A DNA stretch of 38,249 nt, from NCBI GenBank assembly GCA_015499985.1, contig JAAAUF010000349.1:1-38249 (forward strand). Direction: 5' to 3'. Shown piece by piece: positions 1,934 to 37,917 of this stretch. Each line of letters begins with the position of its first letter. The stretch's first letter is position 1. Made by a program: the position numbers and the translations under genes. The notes beneath the pieces are model-generated. The model was not told where the DNA came from, ran no database searches, and saw only the letters and a program-made list of their open reading frames with translations. Origin of the DNA: Haplosporangium gracile (lineage: Eukaryota; Mortierellomycota; Mortierellomycetes; Mortierellales; Mortierellaceae).

Positions 1934-4900
1934 ATGGTTGACAGCAGCGACCCGCTCGAGGTCTTCATCGACCTGCTGCCTCGCCATCAACAGTACCATG
2001 ACCAACTCGCTGCTGACCTCGATCGCATACTTACCTCTAAACAACAAGCTTTGTGTTTCATGCAGCCAGCAGCCCCTGTTGCACGTTCACGAAACAACCA
2101 CACCACCACTACCACCATTACTACTCCCGGCTTTTCCAAGCAGATCAAGCGATTAGTTAACCAGAGCATGTCAACCCTCACGCAATGGACTAAGCTTCTT
2201 AATGCGTCTATTATTTCGGACATCGTCTCAATGCAATCTCCTCCAGACCTACAACCCGCTCTCATCACTCCTTCGTCGGCCAACACAGAAGCTACGGTAA
2301 AGACTGGCAAAAGTCTGGCCCACGCACCTCAAAGTCTATCGGCTGTAAGATTAACAAAAAAGGCTCTCCCTGGAGTTTCCCACACTATGTCCAACAACAG
2401 CACCGGATCAACATCGCAGATATCATCTAGAGGACGAGCGCAGCACTCAGCTGCAGACACAGGGGCAAGACCCTGGACGCCAGCGAGCGGGACAAATACC
2501 AGAAAAGGAAGTACATTCAAAGAAGCCCAACCTATACCACCGACTGATGGATTAGACACGGCAGACTCGGAGGTCTTGCGAGACTCCGTTTATCGCACCG
2601 ATCAGCCCACCTACTCGCACGTCGCCATGTTGGTCGACATCAGTTTCTTAAGTGTGCGCGCACTGGAAGCCTTGGAGAGCAGGGCTTCGACCGGTCTGTT
2701 TGAGATCGAAAAGGCCCGATCCAACCTGATCACTAAGATTATAGCCCTTGGCATGGTAATACCAGTAGTGAATGTTTTATTATTCGAGTCATCAGAAGGA
2801 AATGATTGCAAGTGAATGATGGATTTACTCTTATTTTTTCTTTTCTTTACTGTGTGTACTAGAAAAAGCGGGCACTGCAGGAACTGAGGATTTTACGGGA
2901 GCAGTTGATCGCAGGAGCCATGGTTGTGTGGGATGAGCCAGATTTGGCCATCAAGGGCCAACAACTTCCGTCCGTACCCAACACTCGATTATATCCAACA
3001 TCGATATTGTCCTCAAGCGAATCATTACAAAGGACGTATCAGGATTTGTTCTCCTTTCCATTTCCCAACAAGGTTGTCAGCGATCTGGAGGCTTATCCCT
3101 CAGTACAATCGCCCACGTCCTCGCCTTCAGGTAGCGTCAGTCCCACCCAGACGTTTGTCCTGCTAGTTCAAGCACTTCACAACAATGCCGTGCGATGCTG
3201 GATGGACGTTAGAAATGGATCCTTAGCTCACGTGAGTAACTAAAGATATCGATTGCCTCAATTGCTCTGCAAATAATATGGTCCGCCTACTTAATTCCAT
3301 TTCATTTTATGCTTAGTTACTTTATCCTATGCTCACCAGGAAAGATTCGCCCTACGATTGGTGTGTTTGTATCGCCAAGTCTCAGCCAAAGCTGGCACAG
3401 CAGTCCTTGGACGCTCTTTTCCGGCTTTTGTTTATCTCGGCAGGAAAGGCAGTTGAAAACGACTCAAGCCGAGGTACAGTCCAATTTAAACAATATGGGT
3501 GCACACTGGATTGGCGAAATGCAACTTTTACGATGTCCTCTGACAGTATTCATTCATTACTTTCTTTTGAATTTAGATGGACATCGTAGCGCTTTTTTAT
3601 TAAGAATGCTAGGGATCAGATACCACGCCGCTTTCAAGCATTTTTCGGGGACCAACGACGGGAGTATCTGGGACAGGATCATGCGATGCGGAGCGGAATA
3701 TGAAAAGTCAACCAGAGAAGGACAGACTCAAAGGGATATCATAGTTCTCGTTACAGCGTACAAAGGGATCTTTGAATTTGTGCAGGAACTGTCTCTCATC
3801 GACTACTCCAGCAGTCACTACCAATCTTGGTACTCGCACATGGCGCATTTGGGCTCTAAGGTACTGAACATTTACTTATCTCACCATCATGACAGGAATA
3901 TACCAACTGCAAGCAAATTACTGACGACGTTTGCTGCATCTGGGTAGATGGATGATGAAGCGACTCAAGCCTTTGTCCACAGCATTAATCCGAGTATCCG
4001 AGACAGCACGCCTTTCCCGTTGTCAAAATCGCCCACACCACCAGCACACCTTCCGTCTCAACTAACAACCCTCGTTGGGACTAACGAAGCTTTTCTACGT
4101 ACTTCGCGCTCTATTGCGACCCAACCAACAATCTCGCCCACGCCACTGGCTGGCTACGTGCCCGTGCCTCAGGTCTTTAACTATCTCGAAGAAGCTGTCG
4201 AGGCACTTCGAAAGTTTCAAGACTTTTTACCTGTGTGGCAGCATGACTCTTTACCAGGTATATTTTCAACAATGATGGCTCATTGTGAAGATAATTGTCT
4301 TTCTAACCTCACACTAACCATGCATGTCGGCTTGATATACACTGTTATGTAGCGAAGGATTTAGAGCAGTCGCTGTCAATTACCAGGTCTTCTCTGTTGT
4401 CCTTGCAGTGCGCTCTTTCAGCATCTCCAACAAAGTCTTGGACGACGGTTGCTCTACAAAACATCGCGAGGATATTTCGATCGATGGACACCCTGCGCAA
4501 AATCGGAGCGAAGACACTTGACAGGAATGAGAAGGAAGCGTCGAGCGGCGGTCTCAAATGCATCCAAGACTCACCATCAGGCACGATCATCGCTACAGGA
4601 TTGACAAACAGGCAATTGCAACTGCTTGGGTATATTCAAACTATCCTTCCGTTTTTGTCAGACCTGACAGAGGTCCTCTGGAATGCAGCCCATGCCTGCT
4701 ATCAGGTTTGTCGGCCGATTTACGAAACTGCATGATAGAGCAATGCACGAATCCGCTTTTGTATTGACAGCCTTCATCGCCTTCCTAACACAAATCCTGC
4801 ACACTTTATAGGAGTGGTACGAGGGAGATCGGAGAACCCGCCCTGATCCACTGAAACTATCGTACGCACGGGTTGATGCGATATTATTCATTTCTCGACT

Positions 4901-7900
4901 TTACTTGCTCAACATGGCTATTTCGATCAGACAACCTCTGCCTAAACCGATGACGACATACCTGGAATCAGCGCTTCGGACCGCGGGAAGGATGAACGAT
5001 CGAGTATCGCTTCCCTGGATATCGAACGCATTTTACAACTACGGTGGCTCCCTTTTCAAGACGAATCGGCAGAAGGAGGCCATTCGGCCTCTGGAGCTGG
5101 CCATCCAATCCTACCGACTTTTCCTCGGCGACAGTCTTTTGGAGTGCTCTATGCCTGCCGCTCGTGGAATTATGCATACCTCTGCCAAAACAGATTCAAT
5201 GACAGAGGGCCGCCTGGTACTGGCCAACCGATACGACGTCTTGGGTGTGTGCTTTCAATCCCTTGACCAAATTGATCAAGCCTTGGAGTGTTTTAACACA
5301 GCCTTGCGCATCCTACCTGTGGAGGCTTTTCGGCAGATCGATCATGTTGCACTCGGAGATATAAAGACCAACCATCTACCGGCCGCCAAACTTCTCAACC
5401 GTCGTGCCCGAACTCTGCTGATGATGGCCCAACCTCGGTTTGTTTCTTTTCTATCGTCTGCACCTGAGCTCGAGGCGAGGCTGACACGACATGGACAGGA
5501 GCCATACTTGGCGGGCGCAGTTCAGGAGTATGAAGTAGAGCTACTCTCAGTATTGGGAGTGAAGGCGAACCAAACACGAGTTCGCAACTTGGAGCAGATC
5601 GAGATTTTGAACCACCTAATCACCAAGGTCTATCCAGGAGGCAATCGTCTCGCTCATCCGGTTCGGCGTGCGAGAACCTTGGTTCGCCTTGCCATGCTCT
5701 ATCAAGGTCAGGCAAATCAAGCCTTGCAGGGCCAAGCCCTTCAACTAGTCGAAGAGGCGATTGAGATTCTGAAGGAACAGGATCTTAAAGGCGACGGATG
5801 CTTGGAGCCAGTCAGGAATCACCACCTTGCGATGGCATACACCTGGCAAGGCGTTTTTGAGCATAACAGGAACGAGAATGGGTCGCCTCAGAAGTCCAAG
5901 CCGTTCCTGATTGCTCTTCAACTATGGGAAGTTATTTTGTCTGATGTTGAATGCTTTGCTTCTTGGGAGAAGTCTAGTATATTAGTAGGGTCTGGTCAGC
6001 AGAGCGGGATCGAGAAGGTTCGAACACAGATACCAGACCCAGAGCAGCTCTATGGGCACCTTCAAATGCTCGCGGATTGCTTTGGGATGGTTGATTACAG
6101 AGTCTTGCAGGTGCAGATCTATCGGCTAATGCTACGCCTGTGTAACGGGATTCTTCCAATGTCGGAGCAAACGTGTGCTGGTAGGCTATACGTGGGCCGC
6201 ATGTCGAAGGTTTTTTATGATATTATGGCTCTGTGTAACGTAATTATTAAATATGTTTTTCCTCATATAAATAGACTCCGTACGGATTTATTCGAGAATG
6301 GGTCAAGCATACTTGGCTCTTGGATACTCGGGAAAGGCAAAGACGACCCTTGATTATGGCAAGGCTATTCTGGAGGAGATGTCGAAGCGCTCGGAAGGTC
6401 TCACCACGCAAGGCGAGGTCTATCCACTTTGGCTGCTTGCACACAGCCTGTACTTGACGTCCGTTGGTCACAAGTCCCAAGGTGTAGCCGCATACAATCA
6501 AGCACAGCAGTACTCCCAAATGTACATGAACCAAGCCTTATCTAAGGCCGCCAGCACGTCGCGTCATGCACCCAGCGTTGGCGTAATTTCGGGATTTGTG
6601 GAAACCAAGGTACAAAGGGCCATGGTGGTAGTAGAAGCATCCTTGGCGCGATCCCGGCTACTTTTCTTCGAGGACGGTCTCTCAGAGTCCATTGCTGATG
6701 CAATGAGAGCACTCAGGCAGTTGAATAGGATCATTTCGACGCTTGCCACCGCAATTAAGGCTTCGCAACAGGATTCGACTGTAATCTGCCAACGCCCCAT
6801 GGATAACCCTTTCCTTATCCGAGAGGAACATACGGATCGTGACACTCCTGCAACCAAGGCAACCACTGAGAGCAGTCAACGGCGACAAGGTATCGAGCTG
6901 CTGGCCACTCAGCGCTACCAGTGCTTTATTTTCCGGTTGCTCAGCGAGGTCTATCACCAACTCTCACGGCTGCATCTTGTCCAGGGCAGTGTACAGGAGA
7001 CGGAATATTTCGTCAAGGAGGGCCAGCATATTGCTCGACTGTCAAGGGCCGCCAAGTCTCTGGGTTGGTTCATGCTGGACCAGGCGCATGTGGGTTTATT
7101 GAAGCACGAATGGGAGGAGAGCCAGCAAATTCTTCATGGTCTGGTGCTGGACGATGACGATGTGGATACCGTTGTTGGGTCATTGGAGATTCAGGACGCT
7201 CGGATTCAACTGCTGCATGGCGACCTGTATTTCGCAACAGAGAGATTCGACCGATCGCTGCGCGCTTATTATCGGACAGATGAAATCCTGACGTACTTGA
7301 TGGACAAGTCGGTAATTATGGGCCTGGAACAGCTGGTGATACGAGAACCTCAAACGCCCAGAGAGAAGAGACTGGTAACCCTTTACCAATGCCGAGGGTC
7401 GAGTCACCAACCGTTGCAGGAGTCGCCGGGGATGGATTCTGCTCGAGGATCGCCAAGAACCGAGAAGCTGGAGTGTGCTTCTTTGAGTGAGATCAAGGCC
7501 ATGATGGGATACCGAACAAGTTTGATCTTTGATCGCTTGGGACAACGAGCGCAGGCGAGGGAGTTGGTCGAAAAATCCAGAGAAGAGGATCCTACGGCGC
7601 TTACATCCGCAGAGTATCACCTCACCATGGCCAAAATGCTGATGTTAGAGTTGGAGGATGCGATGGCCAAGCACTTAATGTACGCCATGATTCCGGAGTC
7701 GGCTCTGGCCGTCGGTCTTTTTCAGAAAACTCGAGCACAAGGACTGGTCCCTTCATCGATATCGTTGCCCCAGGCTGTTGGCCCAAACAGCAGTAATACA
7801 TTCTCGCCGCTGGAATCTCACTCGGCTTTCCCGTCGACTTCACCTTCTGTGCGGGTTACAAGGATGTCACGCCGTCGCCGCTCGCAACTTGCATTCCAGC

Positions 7901-10721
7901 AACCTTCGGGTCAAAGCCCTCTTGGTCCTCGTCTGGGAATAACTGGGCTCTCACAAGGAGCAAAGATGAATTCGACGCGACAGTACGTGGACATCCTAGT
8001 CGAAGCCAGAGCGCACCTTATTGGCGCGTTTCAGAGCTCCTTCCACACTTGCCCAACCCATGTCGTCGCGGACATATGCTCCAGGCTCGCCTACCTTGCT
8101 ATACTGGAATCCTGCTTCTACGTTGAGATTCTCAAAGGTGATTGCACGAACGAAATCTTGCCGAGTGACGAGCGATCGAATCGGCAAACGGATGTGTGGA
8201 GGGTGGCTGCTCGAGCCGCTTGTTCGTTGGAGATGGCGAAAGCTGTCACACAGCGGAGAGAGATGCACGGATTGATCAAGCAAAAGCTCTACCCCACGTT
8301 GCCACAAGAAGATCAGGCATGGCCAAAGGATATTGCGAGCAAGGGTGACCAGCACGTCCTGTCGCACAAGCCTGAAGAGTTGCATTTGCTTCATGGACCA
8401 GAAGTACAGCCCCACAAGCACAAGATTGTCACTCTTGTCGGATTGGAAAAACCTCGTCCCTTGCGGCTGTTCCCAGCATCTGATGTTGACAGCGACATGG
8501 GAGATTGCCGAGGTGATGGTGTGGAGACGAAGGAGGATGCGAGGATGAGTTGCGACAGACACCAGACCGGCTCAGAAATGCAAGCGCAGCTGAATCGCGA
8601 GCTTTCGCTGCATCCTTCATCGACATTAGGCAACAACAGACCGTTCTTAACGAAGCTGGACAGGATATATGACCAGGACGCCAAGATGATGTCGGGAACG
8701 GCGGACGATTCTTTGGCTTTCCAGCGGGACTTTGTCGACATTTTGCCGCAGAACTGGACTGTGGTCTCCCTCACGATGGATGTCAACCGTGGTGTGCTCT
8801 ACGTTAACCGCCTTCGCGCCAACACGATGCCACTAGTTGTATGCCTTCCCTTGAATCGAGCCCAGCTGCGAGAGGGTGATGGGGACGTTGGCTCGGATTT
8901 GGGCTTTGGCGCGGAAGTTGACGGAGAACAGGGCTTTAGTAGGGCAGAACCTTTGTCGTACGCTGGGGCCTTCGAAGAACTGCAGAACATTATGAAGGAG
9001 AGCCAGGAAACACTTTCTATAGCGTCGACAGCGATCTCTGGTCACATTCCTGCAACAGGGATCTACGGAGTGACAGCCACATCTTTTACATCTAACCGCC
9101 AGCCTGTCGAACTGACCAAAGAGGCCAAGGCTGAGTGGTGGAGCCGACGCCAGAATCTGAATGATCGCTTGCGTTTCTTGCTGAGCACTATGGAGGACCA
9201 GTGGCTCTGTGGACTGAAGGGTTTAATCCAGTCGCACAACACACCGGCGAACGAGGATACCTTGCTGGGCTTTAAGAGGACTTTGGAGTTGATTATGTCG
9301 CAGGCAGGCAACAGTATGTCGGCAACTCCTGCTCGCAATTTACGATCCGCTGGCCGAGGACATACCGAAATGGAACGAGCTTCCGCGGTCCAAATTGAGA
9401 TCAACGTCGACCTCTGCCGAGCTATACTGAACCTGGGCGACCAACCTACCAAGTCGGAACTGCGCGATCTGATATACTTTTTGCTGGACGCCTATCTCTT
9501 CAAGAACGTTACAGCACCTGGGCCCATGGGTGCTTCAAGCAGCGGCAGTCCCTGGTCCACAGCTTCATCCTTTATCGAGTATTCCGAGGAGCAATTCGGC
9601 CGCATCGCGATGCAGATCCGAGAGGCGTTACGATGTTACTGGGAAGCTGAGGTTGCGGCCAACAACAATGGCTACGACGAGGGTGCCCATGTCATCTTGG
9701 TCCTTGACAAGCACCTACAAATGTTCCCATGGGAATCGTGCCCCGTTCTGAGAGATGAAGCGGTGTCAAGGGTGCCGTCTATCTGGTTCTTACGGGACCG
9801 GATACTTCAGCAGCGATACTTTCTCTCTCAGCCTCAATCTCAGGATAGTCCCGTGCCAACGAACAAAGCAACGGAGAATACGGCTCTTGTCGAACAGGAC
9901 GATTGGAGAGATCTGGAAGTAGATGGACAAAAGACGTTTTATTTGCTGAACCCCGGCAAAGACTTGAAGAATACGGAGGAGGAGTTCAAGAACTATGTGC
10001 TAGCCCAGTCAGGCTGGAACGGAATCATTGGTCGTACGCCCCTGGATATGGAGTGCATTCAAGGTCTTAGCAAGAATGACTTGTATATGTAAGTGATTTT
10101 TTTTGTATTTTTTCCGTCCACATCAACCAGTTTTTCATTCTCCTGCTCAAAACTGACCAGAGTTGCTTGGGGGTGGGGTTTTTTTCTTGTGATCATGACA
10201 GCTACTTTGGTCACTCTGGAGGCGAACAGTACATCAAGCCGACGCAGATACGTAAGCTTGGGCATTGTGCGGTTTCCATTTTACTCGGCTGCAGTTCTGG
10301 ATTGCTTAGGGGCAGTGGAGAGTTCGATCCTACCGGAAACGTGATGAACTACATGCTGGCGGGTTGCCCCACGGTTGTGGCGAATCTGTGGGATGTTACT
10401 GATCGAGATCTGGACCGCTTCAGCAAAGCTCTTTTCACACTCTGGGGACTTGACGACGTCTCTGGCAATGGGAACGAAGGCGCCCTGTCAAGTACATCGC
10501 GAGACTCTGTATGGTCATCCGACTTGCCTATGAAAGGATCGCACAGTGACATGGACAATTCCAGCGTCATGGGTACAAGGACGCGTCCTTCTTTACAGAG
10601 ACCAAGGCTGTCGATTGTTGAGGCAGTCAAGGAAGCCAGGGAGGAGTGCAGACTGAAGTATTTGGTTGGTGCGGCTACAGTGGTGTATGGTATACCCTGT
10701 TTTCTGAAGAAGAGATCCTAG
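1934..10721 (+). CDS. ESP1: Separase (ESP1/Cut1-type cysteine protease)
   Basis: Nine exons close in phase: 1934-2755, 2863-3231, 3317-3473, 3577-3860, 3948-4257, 4353-4705, 4812-6180, 6275-10088, 10202-10721, giving 2665 aa. The last 350 residues are the family C50 protease domain. They contain FPWESCPVLRDEAVSRVPS (about residue 2372), TFYLLNPGKDLKNTEEEF, the catalytic-His motif YFGHSGGEQYI (His2497) and the catalytic-Cys motif LLGCSSG (Cys2523), then a YLVGAATVVYGIP end. The long N-terminal part is predominantly helical, as expected for the separase alpha-solenoid. Separase cleaves the cohesin kleisin at anaphase onset and is held inactive by securin. The protein is long compared with most family members. 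The first in-frame ATG (1934) was chosen; the frame upstream has only non-ATG codons. The last intron splits the exon just before the catalytic His. The extreme C-terminus is uncertain (see findings). No securin gene is seen here. Confidence 0.95.
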
Positions 10722-11396
10722 AGGCAACAGGTAACTTTACATGTATATAACAACGGCGACCGTTTGAACTAACTAGTCACTCGACACAATCAGGCCGATG
10801 GCTGCATAAGGATATTGTAAGCACGCGGTCATTGGAGAATCAGGATTAGGGCGATTAATCCACCTTCCCCACCCCTTGTCTAAGGCTTCTACTGCGCTAT
10901 CAACCAAACGACCATCACAAAACTAACGCTTTGGACCTCCACAATATGAAATTATTTAGTATTTGCTGAAGGCGTTGTTGAGGTGGCAGAAAGGAGAGGC
11001 ATAGGGGAGACAGGAAACGCATAGAAGAGGCAGGATAGGCATACCTGTCAGATGTCGCCTTTCTGCTTCGGATAGTGCAAGGAGAGAGACTGGACATCTA
11101 ATTATATTTTCAACCTTGACTTCTCAGCCCAGACAACTCTGAACCCAATGCCGGCCTCCCCCATGACAGCATCCCCACTCCTTCCTCCTGATTGGCGACA
11201 TCCTATCTATCATCTGGGGACAGGCCATCGATCCTCGCATCGTCCTGGTCATTGTAAACCTGGCCATCACCCAAGTTAGTGCCTAGCTGGTTAAGAACAA
11301 CGTCAGAACAAGAAATAGACATGACCTCCTCTCGTCAAACCTGTATGGATGTAATCATGTGAAGAGTACGTATTTTAATCTTTTGAGCAGTAGTTT
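10722..11396. other. Convergent 3' intergenic region between separase and SMC2
   Basis: This 675-bp gap lies between two converging genes. It contains an intron-like segment close to the separase stop (10731-10793, GTAACT donor, CTAAC branch-like sequence, CAG acceptor), reported separately. Beyond that I see no gene, RNA or repeat. Short open frames here are not coding-like. Confidence 0.6.
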
Positions 11397-18081: not shown

Positions 18082-18988
18082 GATGTCAATTTTTTTTTTT
18101 TTAGTTCGTCTCTTGTAGGCTGTGGCGGTGTGGTGGTGTGTATGAATGTAAAATAGAGGAAGGTAAGACGCAAGTGAAGGGAAGGAGTTAGCGAAGGATT
18201 GATGAAGGAAGCAAAAGAACCGGCGGGATAAGAAAGGGGAAAGGAAGGATGCAAGAAGGAAGTGGAAAGAAAGTTGACCTATTTGACGTCGCTGAGTGAT
18301 TCAGGAACAAAAAGAGTACCCTAACCTCTGTAATCGATTGTTTTTTCCGCGTCCAAATTTAAGAGGTCACGAGCTTCACTGTCCTTCACTCTGGCACTGG
18401 TAGCCCCTGGCTCACGCCGAGTGGCTTTGGCTGGTTGCAGGCAACCCCTGGGTGATCGAAGGTGGCAGCTTGGAGTTTGGCATTGTATCCACTGTGTGTA
18501 AGTGTGAACGAGAGAGAATTGGACATGGACATGGGCATGGATACAAACGACGAGTAGCCTATGCCTATTCCACTAGCTAAGAATAGAAGTCAGTCAGCCA
18601 GTCGACATTTTTCTCTCCTCTTTTCTCGCCTTCTCTCTTCTTTTCATCCCTTCCCTGTCCTTCCTTCTCCCTCCTCTTCATCCTCTCTCATACCAAATCC
18701 TTGTCCTTGCGACAACAGCAACAACAGCAACAGCAGCAACGATAATTGCAGAAAAAAAAACAACAACTTCCTCAGCCTTTCTTATTCCTTCCCTTCCCCT
18801 TCCCCATCACCCGTCGGTTCAGTCCGTTGGGTAAGTCCTCCTTTTCGTCCTCGTCCTCGCTCATCCCGTTCCACCTTGTCCACGAGACCGCTCGTTCTCC
18901 CTCCGCGCCCTCATGTACTCCTCACCACCACACCACGCACTTCAGTTGACCTAACCCACTCTCTTCTACATCATCAGAACTACTTTAG
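18082..18988. other. Divergent promoter and leader region, prenyltransferase / Munc13-like gene
   Basis: This 907-bp gap separates two divergent genes. It begins with an A/T homopolymer run directly upstream of the prenyltransferase start (about 18090-18102) and contains a purine-rich stretch (18150-18270). A pyrimidine-rich stretch (18600-18700) and a CAACAG-type simple repeat (about 18711-18740) lie on the Munc13 side. Open frames here are not coding-like. A probable leader intron occupies the right end (separate entry). Confidence 0.55.
18831..18977 (+). other. Probable 5'-UTR intron of the Munc13-like gene
   Basis: A strong GTAAGT donor at 18831, a CTAAC branch-like sequence near 18953 and a CATCAG acceptor ending at 18977 frame a 147-nt segment. 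It stops 11 bases before the start codon at 18989. Lengths and signals match the coding introns of this window. It is unconfirmed without transcripts. Confidence 0.5.
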
Positions 18989-21900
18989 ATGGCGGACCCG
19001 CGTTACCATCGACCTCCCTATATGCCAGGGCAACCACCTTCTGCATACCCACATCAGAACAACAACATGCCTGGTGGTCCAAGACCCCATGGACCCCCAC
19101 TCCACCACCAGCAACAACAACCCTATGGCCAAGGTTACTTTGCCAATATGCCACAGCAATCTGGCTTCAACAACGGCCCCCCTCAACCCCACTATCCTCC
19201 TGCGTTCAATAACCACGGCCCCGGTGGGTTCAATGGGCCACGCCCGGGAATGGGACCAGGACCAGGACCAGGGCCAGGACACGGACAAGGGTTTGGCCCC
19301 AATAATGGAATGGGACCTGCCCATGGCTTTGGAGGAGGTGGAGGAGGTGGACCCGCGCCAGGAGGGATGGGAGGTAGTCCTCGACCTGGGTTCTCGCCTG
19401 CGCCCAACCACCCCAACATGATGATGCCACAGCCACCGGCAAGGCAAGAATGGCCAGTCTCGGGAAGACCTCCAAATAACGGGTACCCTCCTCAACACGG
19501 ACCTCCAGGACCAGGACCAGGACCAGGACCAGGGCATAGTATGGGCCCACCGCCTGGACATTCGCCGGGATTTATGCCAAGGCCGTTTGGCTCGCCAGCA
19601 ATGCCTCCACCACCTATGCCAGTATTTAACAATCAGTCGTCAGTATCGCCTTTCAACAATCAGCCCGGCTTTAACGGATCAGTGGCTGGACGCCCTTCTT
19701 ATAGCCCCAACATGAGACCCGCGCCCCACCTTCCTTCTGCTCAAATGCCTCCAATATCTGCACCACCACCGCCAAAGTTCACAGAAGGACCACCAGCACA
19801 TCCCAACGTCCGTCCATCTCACCCGGTGGTGCCTCCCAATCCTCTTGTGAATCCAATGACCGCCCTCCCAGCGACATCGTATCAACCAAAGACAAAATAC
19901 CAGGCTGTCCCGGCCCCTTCTCCCCAAAAGGACCCTGCAAAACCCCTTGGTATGCCTTCACCCAGCCCCTCCTGGCAATCGACGTCTTCTGCAACGGCAC
20001 ATAATGCTAGCGGCTACCAGACCTCTCAAAGTCAACACCGACCCTCTATGCACCCAACGGAGTCGTACGATGCCGATGACAGACCCACCGAGCTCATTCC
20101 TCTTGACGACGAGTACCAGCCAATGGCAAAGCCGAACGCGACGTCGCTTTTGCAGTCGCCCTCGACAGTCCCTTCGATTCCCAATTCTGCGGCTGTGTCG
20201 CCCTCGCTGTCCTTCACGGCTGTGTCCTACCTTCCATCGTCGCCTAGTTTCTCGGAAGCGGATAGCCGTCCAACAGAGATGCCGGAGAGTGAACTCATTA
20301 AGAAAGTCGAGCCTTTCAGACCCGCTGACCTTGCCTCGTCTGCTCAATCGCAAAACAAGACTCCCTTGACACCCTTGCCCTCGTCTGGTACTAAATTCCA
20401 GGGTAACAACAGCACCTTTACTCCCTCGTCATCCTCATTTACACCCCCAGCATCCTTTGCTCCGTCATCCTCTTTTACACCTCCAACAACCTTTGCTCCC
20501 TCGACCACTTTTACGCCTTCGACCACCTTTGTTTCCTCGACCTCCTTTGTCCCCTCGACGACCTATAAGCCCACCAAAAAGGATACTCCTAAGTTTCCAT
20601 CGACCCAACAGCCATCACATACTCTTGGATTTGACCTCACTGTCAAAGTTGAAATTTCGGATCTCAGACCGTCTTCATCCGCGCCGTTCGGAGACAGCTC
20701 CAATATCAAAGTGGCCGTTGACGATATCTCGCCTCCTACGCCAGCTCGAAAGTCTTTGCCCGCCACGGATGCTCTGGACAGTCCTATTTCGTTGGATGGA
20801 TTGATGGAAAGCATTGAGGCGATGACTAAGCCCAGCTCGACACTATCGACTTCTACCACCTTTGCCGCCTCCAGTACTTCTCAGCAGACTTCTTCTGCCA
20901 ACTATTTCAAGCCGCTACCCTCGATCGGCGGAGAGTCCGACGACCAAAAGAGGTACTCGCTGTCAGACGGACCTACTAATGGCCCAGGATTATCCCAGTC
21001 GCCACCTATCTCGCGCTTGGTCCCCAAACGGCCTGTCAGCAACTATACTCCACAGCCATCAATTGACCATAATACCCAGCATGTCAACAACGATACCGCA
21101 GCAGCTGCTTCAGTCCCGACACCGGCCCTTGCACCTTCGTCTGGTCAATTTCAGGGAACCCCGTTCACCACTCTATCCCCAGCTGTATCCCAACCATTCT
21201 TTCCATCGCCCCAGCCTCCACGGCGCGAGGAAGTGCAGCAGATTTCCTTTCTACCCTCTCCCAATCAACAGAGCCCACTTTACCAGAACAACCACAGCAA
21301 CCAGCACAACCAACACCACGGCCGATTGGGTGGAGATATGGCAATTTTGAACCAGCCAGAGTTTGCTCAAAACCCAATCATGTCCATTGCTGCATTATCG
21401 GACCGCCCTGTTCAGAAGGCGCCATCGATGATTCAACGTGGCAAGACTTTGCGCAGAGCGGCGGGAATGACCGGAGTTACTCATCCACCCGACATGTCAT
21501 CGTCTGCTCCTGCACCTCCTGCCAAGGTGACGCCCGATGAACTCTATCCCTATCTTCTCAGGCTCGTTTTGCTGGCACAGGCTGACGAAGTACCGCCTCC
21601 ATCACAGCCCCTGCCCGTTACTAACAAGGATACATACAAGGATCTCATCAAGGCTCTGAAACCACGACTGAAGGATATTCACGCTGGAAGGGACATGGTA
21701 TATCAGGACCCTATTGTCAAGAAGGCTCTGACTGCAATGGAACCCAAGTTTAAGACTGCAACCAACGGAGAGGACTTGGTATTAGGTTTCTCTATTGAAA
21801 TGACCAGGGTTCAGCAATCGATGAATATACCTACCACCAGTCGAGATGCTCAAATGGCCGTTATGGCTGGTCTCTTGCGTGACGTTATCCAGAAGGATCC

Positions 21901-24900
21901 CTTCACTGGTCATGAGGCTGTCATGCAACGCTTGGATAGCCTCGTCAAGACTGTGACCATCAAGCCCAATAGCACTGCCGCACAGGCGGATGGACTTACC
22001 AAGGTTATCAAGGAGCTCTTTAGAATGCCAGAGACCGTCCGACATTCCAAGATGAACGACCTCCGTAAGAGTTCAACCAAGCAGGTACGTATTTTCAATT
22101 GTTTTTATGTGCATAATGCTAGAGGAAGAGCATACGTTTTGATATGCCGCGCTTTCCGTTTGAACTGGTGCTACTAGACTGCGATCGAGGACCTCAAGAA
22201 GTGCGCCTCAAATCTTGAGCTGGATTTGTTCCCATATCCTGGTATTGGCGATTATCATCACAAGGATCATCACGAAGAGTTCAAGAATAGAGAGCGATCA
22301 GCCCTTTCTGGAAACATCCGCGCTCTCTCGGCGGGCCACCACGCATCACTTGACATGCCTTCACGACAGTTCCATCCCGTAATTCAATGTGGCCGAGCTT
22401 TTGTTACAGACTCTGGCCTGAAGCAATCATCAGTGACCATTGTATTAACGTAAACGCTTCATTTTACTTGTTCTGAACCGATATAGAGCGAGTTTACGTT
22501 CGTTCCTCAGGATCCAAAGGCATACTACCACTTGTTGCTGGAAATGTGTGTCGACCACGCCCTTGCCACACGTCATCAGGACGATATGGCTGTCAACTTG
22601 ATTTCTCCACCAACAAAGGCGCTGTTGAAAGAATGCGGTGTTCGCTGGAGATTGACTTCCAGCTGGAGGGAAATCATACTAATGGAAGTCATCAAGGAGC
22701 GGTACAGAGAGGCTAAGATCTCGATCGGCTTCTTGCTCGATTTCCTCCAGACAAAGTTCTACAAGGACACGGAAGTGCATCAATGGCACATTTCCGAGGT
22801 AAGAACGCGCCTGTAACTGCACAGCATGTTCTTGGTAAAGTATAGCAGATCTAATTCTAGCTTTGTTCAATTAACATTGACTTAGGTCAACATGTTGGGC
22901 GATGTTTATGGAGGACTGAACCACATGATTTTTGACAATATCAATCACGACATCAAAGATTTGGGCAACGTCAGCGCGGATTACTTCCAACCCATGCTGG
23001 AGATTCTGGATCGCGTTCACCAACAGGAAGTCTATCAGCGATTGAACATCGAGCTGAAGCCATTCTTTGACGACATTACGGATACAGTGTTGACGGAATC
23101 ATTCCAAAAGTACAGGGAAAAGGACGAAGAGATCCAAAAGGTGCCCTACGAGAACGAGACTGTACCCTTGTCCCAGATGGCGCTGTACATTGTATCAGAG
23201 CACGCCGTCATGAAGAAACGCTTCCCCAAGCCATTGTTCGGGTAAGGACCTTTTGATTTAGTGTCTATCATTAATAAGAATGGGCAGAATGGGTAGTAGT
23301 TGCAATATGAATATGTCATATGGCCGGGAGTGAACCCCTGGGACTTATATGATTTTCATCATTTTACGTCTTAGGAATGTCGATGTCGCTGGAATTGTGG
23401 TAGAGCACAACCTCAGGAACTTTGTACCCCTGATGCAAAACATGGCCAACATGGATGGAAGAAAGTTGCCTACCGGCGATGTCTTCCCCCTTTACCAGCT
23501 GTGTCGTGAGTTGGTCTCGCTCTTTGAAGAGTATGCGCCCAGGTAAGTCAAGAATAGGCAAAAATAGTGTCTGCGGCATGTGCTCAGAGGCGAAGTCATT
23601 GCTCTTACCAATGCATATGCATTTTTGTTCCTCATGGTGCTATAGCTCAAGTGTTCACTTCAACATCTCCACATGGTTCAGGCCGTATGTTCTCAAGTAT
23701 CTGGAAGACCTGGACTTATCTATTTTGGGCTGGGTGACAGCCGCTATCCAGCAAGATAAGGTATGCGCTCACTATTGAGGTCGAATGCAATCCATTCTTA
23801 TTGCAAGTACGTATAATGACAGTATATAAGCTAATATCTACCAACATGACAATGCCATACATAGTTCGAGGAAGTGAGTGTCGGTGCAGGTCACTCTTCT
23901 TCTGCAAGCGACCTATTCGCTTTCTTCTACGACCCTCTGCGATGGATTCGTGGATTGAACTGGTCCAATGACTACCAGCGTGCGACTTTCATGTCAAAGC
24001 TGGCCAAGGTCTTTTGCAAGGCTGTCGATCTGTACGCACAATATATGGAGTCCATGTTCTTGGAGTTCATGCCATCGTCTGTTTCGGCAGTAACGTCCAA
24101 GGAGGCCAAATCATTCTCAGAGCAGTTCGCATCTTTTACTTTCCGGTCTGAGAGTGCCGAAGCCAAGAAGGCGTCTCGCTTCGTCTTTACACCCAAGGTG
24201 CGATTTCTTGAGCCTTTTCCTTGGCAAAATCCAGCGTTTGTTTTCATTCTCAATGAGTGGATTCTTTTAGCTGACTATGTTGCATTATTGTTATATTCTA
24301 GATGTGTGTTTTGATGAACAACATTGAGGCTGTCCGCCAGCGATTGGATGAGCTGTATCGTGACATGGATGTGGATGAGATTGTCCAGATATTGAGGGAC
24401 AACGAGGCAGCGCCAGAGCAGACGGAGGAAGAGTCCCATCAATTTGAGGTGGTTATTGTGTCTGCGGAAAGATTGCTTCCTATGGATACGAATGAGAAGA
24501 GCGACCCCTATGTGGTTCTGTCTCACGACGAGAAAGAGCTTTTCAGGACAAAAACGATTTATGCCAACATCAACCCTCGTTGGAACGAGGTTTACGAGAC
24601 GACGTTGACCAAGGAAATCACGTACCTCGTTTGCGTTTATGACGCGGAGAAGACGCAGAGTAGCCGGTTGTGCGGTTGGCAGTACCTTTGCATCGACCCT
24701 CAGGAGTACGAGGATTACATGCCTCACGATGTTTGGCTGGATTTGGCACAGATCGGTCGACTTTTGTTAAGAGTCACGATGAAGGGCGAGCGTGATGATG
24801 TCCAGTTCTTCTTTGGCAAGACCTTCCGATCTCTCAAGCGCAAGGAGGCTGACCTTAGTGGCATGATTGTCGACGCTGTAAGTTCTTCCTCTTCTTAGGT

Positions 24901-34574: not shown

Positions 34575-34705
34575 AAATCCTCATCATTTTTGCCTTTTTT
34601 TGAACTAATGTACAAGGGACTTCCAGACTGTCCACCTTACTAGTCTTCAGTCATGTCAGCAGCGGCAGCAGCAGCGTCTTGCAGCAGGACTACTTTTCTG
34701 CGTCC

Positions 34706-37700
34706 TTACTTTGAAGATGGTTTGTAAATGTCCATTCGTACGGCAAACAGCGAGACCACCTCCACTTCCTCCTGTTTCACCTTCTCCTGGTCGTCAAGTA
34801 CACCGCGTGCAGTCGGTCGGGATGCGTGAATGTGTTTCCAAGACTCGGAGGCGTTCTTGCGGTCTGCTTTGGGGACGTGTCCGTCGCGCTCTAAACAGAT
34901 GCGCTCGATCGTCATGGCACTGTCGACTTCGTAGGTTCTTGTCAACTTGATAGAGATCACAATCGAGTATCGTTTCTGTGGCTGTTGTCCTTTCTCGCTT
35001 TTCCTTGGTGATGACCTCGTGGTCACTGTCAACATGTTGGGCCACCACTACTCCTGCTGCCACTAGTTCGGACTTTTGGCCATCAGTTGGATTGTGGTCC
35101 TTTGGTTTTCTGCGTCTGTCACCGTTGATAAACTCGATAATGGGCCTTCCAGCCTTTGTCATTTCGACCACTCGCATCAACTGGCCAGCCCTGGCTTCAC
35201 CAGCCCCAGAGAACGACAGTGCCTTGTCTTCGTTGTCCTGTTTGTCGATCATGACAACAGCGATATCCGTTGACGTCTCTCATTTTGTTCCTCTGATACT
35301 GGCTCTATTGTAGGCACCGTCGTCGTAACTGTCGTCGTTCTCGTCGTTCTCATTGCAGCCGGTGGTTCCGTTGTCACCACTATGTTGACATTAGATTTCC
35401 ACCTTGCCGATGATTGTTGTTGTGATGGTGGTTGGACGGTCCCGGACGTACAGCAACTGGTCTCCGATTTGAATCCCCTTGTTGAGACAGACCTTGGCCA
35501 GCGATGTCTTTGAAGAGTCCCCAGCCTCCATCTTGCGCACGCTGGTCTGGATCACCTTCTCGCCATAAAGCCTTTCAAAATCATTTGATTTCCACGTCTC
35601 GCCCTCGCTTCCCTTCACCGTTGTTGCTGTTGTCGTCGCTGTTGTTGTCGTCCTGGTAGCACTCATCATCATCTTCCTGCCATCGTCCTCTCGTCTCAAG
35701 GCTGCAATCTTGGTCTTGTATTCGTTCGTAAACTTGTCCTCCACCAGGGTCTTCTACCAGTCGAGTTTGGCAAGGCTGCACGAAAACATGTTGAAGAATG
35801 CCTCAGTCGCGGTGCCGGTGTTGCTGTCGAGATATCATGGATTGGCCCGGATGCAGGCTGGGAGAAGATCGACAAAGGCGTTGAGTTGTGATGGAGAACC
35901 GAGTATACGCCTCGTAGGAAATCACCTTGCTGATGTCGGTAATGGCGTATTTGGAATGGGGACCTGTGAGCTGGTCAGATAGGCTTGGTTTGGCAACGGT
36001 AAGATTTTTAAGTGGGCCGGTGCTGAGTTGGGATGTAGTCTGGTCATCAGGAGTGGTGCTTGTTGTCTGACCAGGCTGACTCGTGGCTTCGTTGTCATGG
36101 ACGGCAGCAGATAGTGTATGCAAATGGTGTATTTCCATGGGGTTGAGTGCTGGCCTGGAAAAAATCGATAGTTGTTGCATTTGCAGAACTGACGATGCTA
36201 CAGTCGATGATGAGCACTTCAGGGGTGTCACCAAATTGAGCCGCACGAGCGCCAGAGTCGTCGAGAGGATTTTTCGCATTATCGAAGTCACCACTGTTCC
36301 CGGCCACCTTGGCGGCTATTGCGGAAGTCTGTGAATTCATCTGTTCTGGGATACTGGGATTGGCATCGCAGCCAGCGAGGACTTTCAGCAGATCGCCCTA
36401 TATCGGATCGCTATCGACAAGGGTCGTACTTATGTCCTCCGGCTGAGACGAACCTGTTATGGTACGCTGGGTCATCGTCGTCTCGTGCTGGGAATATTCA
36501 TCACGAACAAGACCGTTCTCGATGGCGAGAGGCGAGCTGTCAGTGTCTGTTGCAGGCTTATGGAGAGAAGAGGCGTCGAATTTGTCGGTATCGTCTTGAT
36601 CACTGACCCTCGAAAGCGGATCTTCGTCGACCCTGTTGTTGCTGAAAGGTGAGGGCTTGGTATAGGAGGAGGGCTGAAAAGGCCCTGAATGCTGTCGATA
36701 AGCACTTGCACGCTTGGTTTGCGAAATCTGTTAATTGTCTGTACAGTGAGATACTTTAGTTTGGTGTCGACAAAGATGTTGTTGTCACTGCTGATAGGGC
36801 TGCCATGGATTTGATCATCTGATTTACTGAAGCTGTCGTCTAGATGTACATCGAGAGGGCCAAGTTTAACGTCAGTGGACGCATTGTTATCACCGCTTCG
36901 ACGGACGTATAGGTCTTCTCCACGGTCGAGCGATTTGTCGTTGTCGATGTCGTCGGCTGTGTTGCTAGGGGGTATGAGGGTATTGAAATTGACGGGGATG
37001 ATGCTGTCAATGTTGCTGTCGCTCGTTTCGCCTTTGTAGTGGTAGGTAGCGTTTGTTATGGGGACAAAATAACCGCAGCGGAGCTGGTGGTAATAGAGGC
37101 GCTGTCTTCGATCCTGACTTGAGTTACAGAGGGCTTGATGCTGGTTTTGATGTCAATATGAAGAAATCTTTGTGGCCGTCCGCTGGAGGGTCTCGAAGGT
37201 ATCGCATTTGATGGGATCTCGATGCACGCCAATCGTTCAGACGTGATACCCGTTAACTCTCTCGCATCCAGTTTGGCCGCCGCCCTTGCTCGAATCATCT
37301 GCTTGGAGAGCTTGGCTTTATGTGCGGCCTTGCGAGCAGCGATGGCAGGAGTCCACACGTCGTCCGACTGGAGCCCTGCTTGCTCCATGCCTGACGCTTT
37401 GGAGGATGCGATCCACTTGTTGTCGTTGTTCGTCTTGTGCGGTAGTGCGGTAAGGTCGATGATAAAGTCGGCATGTTTAACGCGATTGCCGGACAGTCTG
37501 GTTTTGAGTCGCTGGTAATATACTTTTCCTTGGCGTCCCGTTAGTGTTCCATGTACTTCTTCCATTGTGGTCGCCATATTCTCCGCTGGATGATAGTCCT
37601 TGAGAGGTATCGTGAACGAGGAAGAGGAGGTGGTGGTAGTGACATTATTTGGAATACGTCGCTTGCACCGCCTCTTCAAGCTTCCAGCTCCAGTCTCCTC

Positions 37701-37917
37701 CGCCGACAAATCCAAGGCCATATGGAGCGTTTTTTTCCGAGTCGTCAATTGCCGAGATATCTAACCGGGGTAACAAGAATGGAACAAGTTAAAGATGCGA
37801 ATATGAGGAAAAACTCGCTGTTCCTTGAACGTCCTGACGATTAGACAAACACAACAGAACACCATGCAGACGCTGGGTGGCGTACAGATTCCGGACGTCC
37901 AATTGTTTTCTTGTCAT
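34706..37917 (-). pseudogene. Decayed ASX-homology (ASXH/DEUBAD) domain gene
   Basis: Read 5' to 3' on the minus strand, a start at 37917 and exon-like blocks 37917-37863, 37760-37669, 37598-37128, 37083-36772 and 36727-36398 join in phase to 419 codons ending at a TAG at 36398-36400. The same frame continues coding-like past this stop. Further down, a domain resembling the ASX homology/DEUBAD domain of animal ASXL proteins is visible at about 35940-35500: ISYEAYTRF, then NAFVDLLPACIR, TEAFFNMF, KTLVEDKFTNEYKTKI and WKSNDFERLYGEKV. It is broken by a frameshift near 35880 and in-frame stops at 35835-35837 and 35754-35756; the same frame has further stops at 35391-35393 and 35280-35282. Another frame change lies near 35020 before a final stop at 34706. 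In animals this domain activates the BAP1-type histone H2A deubiquitinase. Coding-like composition with many lesions indicates a pseudogene. A truncated N-terminal product is still possible. Two of the inferred 5' introns are only 44 nt, shorter than the other introns here. Confidence 0.72.

Follow-up and report, generated by a model that had tools for sequence, protein, structure and literature searches.

A probable recently inactivated ASX-type DEUBAD gene in Haplosporangium gracile

The minus strand near one end of a Haplosporangium gracile (Mortierellaceae) contig reads in pieces like an ASX-type DEUBAD protein, raising the question of whether a fungal gene for such an adaptor has been lost there, how recently, and whether a deubiquitinase was lost with it. 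The window analyzed is the whole stretch of 38,249 nucleotides and represents the entire contig JAAAUF010000349.1 (C462) of a 37.5-Mb draft genome in 1157 contigs (GCA_015499985.1). A preliminary description made from the letters alone had listed five peptide blocks between 35450 and 35990 and proposed that they were the remnant of a decaying ASXH/DEUBAD gene. All five were found there on the minus strand and in that order, ISYEAYTRF in one frame and NAFVDLLPACIR, TEAFFNMF, LDW-stop-KTLVEDKFTNEY and WKSNDFERLYGEKV in another. We are confident that the minus strand from 34.67 to 37.76 kb is an ASX-type pseudogene and, with a probability of roughly 0.9, take it to be an orthologue, inactivated recently, of the ASX-DEUBAD gene known from Linnemannia and Mortierella.

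Homology of the locus to fungal ASX proteins

Four single-frame pieces of the locus yielded nothing in Pfam except a domain of unknown function under its cut-off. In protein searches, a query joining the frames over the whole locus retrieved four proteins at E ≤0.01, with identities of 47, 47, 44, and 33% over 92, 94, 88, and 92% of the query, and the conserved half of one orthologue, P0004, used as a second query, retrieved at least seven, including P0004 and all four proteins of the first search. In both searches scoring was limited to the 7984 candidates with the most shared words, and the orthologue list is thus a lower bound. The sources include Linnemannia gamsii (P0002, BGZ96_005859), L. 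exigua (P0016, BGZ95_011265), L. zychae, Mortierella sp. AD032 (P0004, BGX24_010052) and Mortierella sp. NVP41. No ASX protein of L. schmuckeri appeared in either search, which carries little weight, as the ASX-bearing L. gamsii was likewise missed in the list of separase matches described below.

The seven orthologues all matched the Pfam family ASXH (PF13919) at 39.7 to 54.3 bits, over the cut-off of 25.8, and ASXH was the sole family above its cut-off in each of them. The proposed descent of the locus from an ASXH/DEUBAD gene was thereby borne out. When chains of solved structures were re-aligned with a structure model of an orthologue (119 chains), the best matches were DEUBAD chains of ASX/ASXL1; as modeled, the orthologue has the DEUBAD fold. 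RPN13 chains were not among the matches listed, an absence that carries no weight. A Foldseek search with the orthologue model returned 39 rows at E values from 1.7 upward, none of them meaningful. By sequence, the matches to Drosophila Asx chains were marginal (9v33_L, E 0.0039; 6cga_B, 0.02; 6hgc_C, 0.34).

The fungal proteins differ from Drosophila Asx and human ASXL1, the DEUBAD adaptors of Calypso and BAP1 in PR-DUB, in that neither HARE-HTH nor a PHD finger had a Pfam match at E ≤1 in any of the seven. HARE-HTH is not a defining feature of the family, because Drosophila Asx also lacks it according to the parts of PMC7660087 that we consulted. The NEF motif described there for ASXL1/2 is not retained in the fungal alignment as drawn: Drosophila NEFFARA is aligned to a sequence without NEF, and a nearby TEAFF may be shifted through alignment error. 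The assignment is to the ASXH family only; orthology to ASXL1 is not claimed.

Unlike Drosophila Asx and human ASXL1, the fungal orthologues have a conserved region past the DEUBAD (P0004 residues 608 to 840), to which a low-confidence model gives both helices and strands. Three segments of this region, with three of the seven orthologues covered, gave no Pfam match above cut-off, and the region is possibly a domain of fungal ASX proteins that has yet to be described. A likeness to the RAMA domain was considered and dropped because of this lack of Pfam matches.

We aligned a profile of the orthologues with the minus strand in a frameshift-tolerant manner. It covered 990 codons and overran the coordinates of the preliminary description, extending from approximately 34670 to 37760 and perhaps to 38190 when introns were allowed. 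The score was 1547, far beyond chance, compared with 30 to 40 in all eight shuffled copies of the locus and 32 to 50 in all 18 tiles from both strands of window positions 1 to 33900. The Linnemannia/Mortierella proteins are homologous over almost their full length, and the DEUBAD region of the window copy is 52 to 68% identical to those of the seven. The parts of the locus are as follows.

34670..37760, minus strand: probable ASX-type pseudogene, full homologous span, with putative 5' exons to 38190 (frameshift-tolerant profile alignment)
37067..37760, minus strand: N-terminal part in a single open frame (open to 37059), free of lesions (frame reading and profile alignment)
35963..37066, minus strand: variable middle in two frames, with three frame changes, the first of them where this part begins, and an in-frame TAG at 36400-36398 (profile alignment)
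35553..35962, minus strand: DEUBAD/ASXH region with stops TGA at 35837-35835 and TAG at 35756-35754, and one frame change at ~35.88 kb (Pfam and profile alignment)
34670..35552, minus strand: C-terminal region conserved among the orthologues, with five frame changes (profile alignment)

The preliminary description had also suggested a search for an intact paralogue. Intact orthologues were used as queries because a whole-genome family search missed the locus itself; that search was empty in control genomes as well and is uninformative. With P0002 and P0004, every significant match fell at this locus, six significant pieces being found with P0002, and matches elsewhere had E values of 0.062, 1.4, and 2.8. 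Pieces of the broken copy found themselves and, at E 0.012 and 0.031, matches on contigs C179 and C238, which on reading are threonine-rich low-complexity stretches and were rejected as paralogues; the N-terminal part matched only itself. Within the draft of 1157 contigs, no intact second copy was found.

Lesions, age of the loss and alternative readings

The Linnemannia/Mortierella proteins are predicted to be full-length, whereas the profile alignment of the window copy shows three in-frame stops (TAG 36400, TGA 35837, and TAG 35756) and nine frame changes, seven of them near 37.1, 36.6, 36.1, 35.9, 35.4, 35.3, and 35.0 kb and the other two near 34.7 kb, confirming the decay that had been proposed. 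The orthologue residue is R in six of seven proteins at TGA 35837 and Q in all seven at TAG 35756. The same counts of three and nine were obtained with each of P0001 to P0004 as the sole reference and introns allowed. Introns were considered as a source of the frame changes; when GT-AG introns of 45 to 400 bases were permitted, the nine rose to ten and the stops remained three.

As a control, we applied the same program to a separase gene (Peptidase C50) with introns on the same contig (window ~4143 to 10722, plus strand). Its nearest relative among 11 matches is that of L. schmuckeri, at 92% identity, and it is 51 to 53% identical to the separases of three named Mortierella species, which points to a Linnemannia-like fungus within the Mortierellaceae. 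Against the L. schmuckeri protein it showed no stop and no frame change over 2067 codons. With more distant references it had no stops and one frame change, at the extreme C terminus (P0009, 59% identity), or no stops and three frame changes (P0010, 58% identity). The ASX-type copy therefore carries several independent disabling lesions that splicing does not explain.

The loss is probably young. Of the 119 columns in which the seven orthologues do not vary, the window copy covers 116 and retains 102, the 14 losses including a stop at Q. When each orthologue was left out in turn, losses were 4/123 for P0001, 1/120 for P0002, 6/125 for both P0003 and P0004, and 8/127 for P0016; for P0017 and P0018 they were 35/154 and 47/166. 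On the column sets of the first five, the window copy lacks 17 to 19 residues, uncovered columns counted. It has thus changed more than its near relatives, though not much. In the tree its sister group is P0001-P0003, and its branch is somewhat longer. At a probability of 0.031 per substitution that a nonsense codon arises, three stops correspond to approximately 97 substitutions, or about 3% of the gene, an estimate with a very wide error. Together, the invariant-column, rate and tree results suggest a recent loss.

Several observations weigh against an inactivated ASX gene. Over the whole length, Tajima tests gave p <0.05 in only 2 of 12 comparisons, both with outgroup P0017 (70:41, p 0.006, and 74:46, p 0.011), and the comparison with P0002 and P0004 was not significant (81:63, p 0.13); the acceleration that a pseudogene should show is therefore weak, with 0 of 8 comparisons at p <0.05 for the separase. 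The DEUBAD region of the broken copy, read with frames joined, matched ASXH at E 0.0012 and 19.3 bits, under the cut-off of 25.8; the Pfam check proposed in the preliminary description thus failed for the broken frames alone and succeeded with the orthologues, and the family assignment holds because the latter match above the cut-off. Finally, the N-terminal 0.69 kb (37067 to 37760) is free of lesions with all 12 lying downstream, an arrangement with a probability of ~5% under random placement, so that a truncated N-terminal product is possible.

That last observation speaks for a shortened expressed gene, in which the N-terminal part (37059 to 37760, 234 codons) would be translated as a protein devoid of DEUBAD. 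According to the portions of PMC5644247 that we consulted, truncated animal ASXL proteins are active, but the parallel is weak because those forms retain the DEUBAD. A chance of ~5% for a lesion-free first fifth is not negligible, and the open part (37056 to 37748) has no Pfam match. We consider this alternative improbable.

It is less probable still that the gene is functional and its frame was spoiled by assembly or sequencing errors. The homology begins ~0.5 kb from the contig end, coverage is often low at contig ends, and much of the locus is well conserved. Nevertheless, the 12 lesions in ~3 kb, which include two in-frame stops within the DEUBAD, contrast with the 2067 codons of the separase that are unbroken against its nearest relative, and the loss of 14 of 116 invariant residues, one of them a Q replaced by a stop, is not explained by indel errors. 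Descent from another DEUBAD protein, of the RPN13 or INO80G/NFRKB type, is the least probable of the three, even though these share the DEUBAD with ASX and the match to Drosophila Asx is marginal by sequence: no Pfam family other than ASXH passes its cut-off in any of the seven orthologues, the solved DEUBAD chains that they match are those of Asx/ASXL1 both by sequence and by fold, and the RPN13 DEUBAD was matched separately, on contig C827.

UCH deubiquitinases and a possible joint loss

If the locus is an inactivated ASX gene, the fate of its enzyme comes into question. According to the parts of PMC7660087 consulted, deubiquitination in animals requires the DEUBAD of Asx/ASXL, which binds to the ULD of Calypso/BAP1. 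The preliminary description had called for a search for a BAP1- or UCH37-type partner, and the answer was divided: one UCH37-type gene is apparently intact and another, more divergent UCH looks broken. Peptidase_C12 was matched on four contigs, C304, C577, C725, and C1024. The C304 gene is UCH37-like, with UCH_C, and has no stops and no frame changes over 313 codons compared with UCHL5. The RPN13 DEUBAD on C827 (98.9 bits) was likewise matched with no lesions seen. RPN13 with UCH37, at the proteasome, is an adaptor-UCH pair of the same type, whose DEUBAD belongs to a different Pfam family from that of the window locus.

By reading, the C577 gene is of the UCHL3/YUH1 kind; its alignment with UCHL5 (no stops, two frame changes, and nine implausible introns) is uninformative at 27% identity. 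A UCH-like match at C725:10784-11293 (30.1 bits, five stops) was set aside as an old relic or chance, since its aligned scores of 30 and 36 compare with 34 to 44 in six shuffles. The fourth match is the following.

Contig C1024, ~5174..6394 (L010:992-2212): second, divergent UCH-type gene that looks broken (Peptidase_C12 match)

Peptidase_C12 matched it in two pieces, at 56.3 and 29.9 bits, with a cut-off of 27. The frame with the motifs DACGTQ and CHYIAC, which by alignment with UCHL5 we take to hold the catalytic Cys and His, also reads TAG, TAA, and TAG; the TAA falls in a stretch aligned as intron, and the alignment counts two stops. At 41% identity, one frame change was found with strict penalties and five with loose ones, one near L010:2104 under both. 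A ULD-like stretch, NYRPALDSFMQAFASL, was recognized by eye in another frame and has no profile match. The gene is flanked by long open frames, three of six tested having Pfam matches. The apparently broken state of this divergent UCH, in a genome where UCH37 seems intact and the RPN13 DEUBAD is matched, is new here.

By analogy with Asx-Calypso and ASXL1-BAP1, the odds are about even that the ancestor of the window locus was a UCH adaptor. In the working gene, the DEUBAD helices would have clamped and activated a UCH37/BAP1-class deubiquitinase bearing a ULD, and the C-terminal region would have served targeting. The likely enzyme would be the second UCH, now apparently broken on C1024, which is the natural candidate because UCH37 already has RPN13. 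Adaptor and enzyme might then have been released from selection together, with UCH37 and RPN13 retained. We regard such a joint loss as possible but less likely than not, in view of several points to the contrary. Because the program can invent frame changes at low identity, as with C577, those of C1024 are not as secure as the stops. Its first exon is nearer UCHL5 (41.5 bits) than BAP1 (26 bits), UCH_C (PF18031) was found in the genome at C304 only and not at C1024, and no intact orthologue of the C1024 UCH was encountered. Its role as partner of the lost adaptor is thus a possibility that we infer. If a joint loss did occur, it would be a natural knock-out revealing which fungal processes need the module, and if the second UCH is the partner, the shared decay of the pair would name an enzyme-adaptor pairing without a pull-down.

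ASX adaptors in fungi and neighboring sequence

To our knowledge, ASX-BAP1 complexes have been studied almost only in animals. The claim of the preliminary description that such genes are little described in fungi agrees with our literature searches, although UniRef already gives these proteins the name "ASX DEUBAD domain-containing". The ASX family is known and its fungal members already annotated, the window locus being a decayed one. Our searches of the open-access literature, with subscription journals mostly outside that coverage, turned up no account of ASX adaptors in Mortierellaceae. The main texts of PMC5644247 and PMC7660087 contain no word starting with "fung". In Flammulina, an ASXH gene is listed among fruiting candidates, according to an excerpt of PMC12295547.

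A lineage with full-length ASX proteins in some species and a broken gene in a related one offers a comparison for the role of the adaptor. PRC1, the writer of H2A ubiquitin, is generally believed to be lost from fungi, with orthologues reported in several deep-branching species, as stated in the sections of PMC10638273 that we consulted; that paper contains no word starting with "Mortierell". The comparison thus asks what an ASX-type adaptor does where PRC1 is believed lost. A search of the genome for the PRC1 RAWUL domain gave no matches and was also empty in the control genomes, so that it is uninformative.

Elsewhere in the window, the plus strand contains a 1062-residue open frame at 18989 to 22177, which is proline-rich near its start, has no Pfam match, and includes a repeat array at 20414 to 20564. 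A 193-residue open frame lies on the opposite strand at 18980 to 19561.
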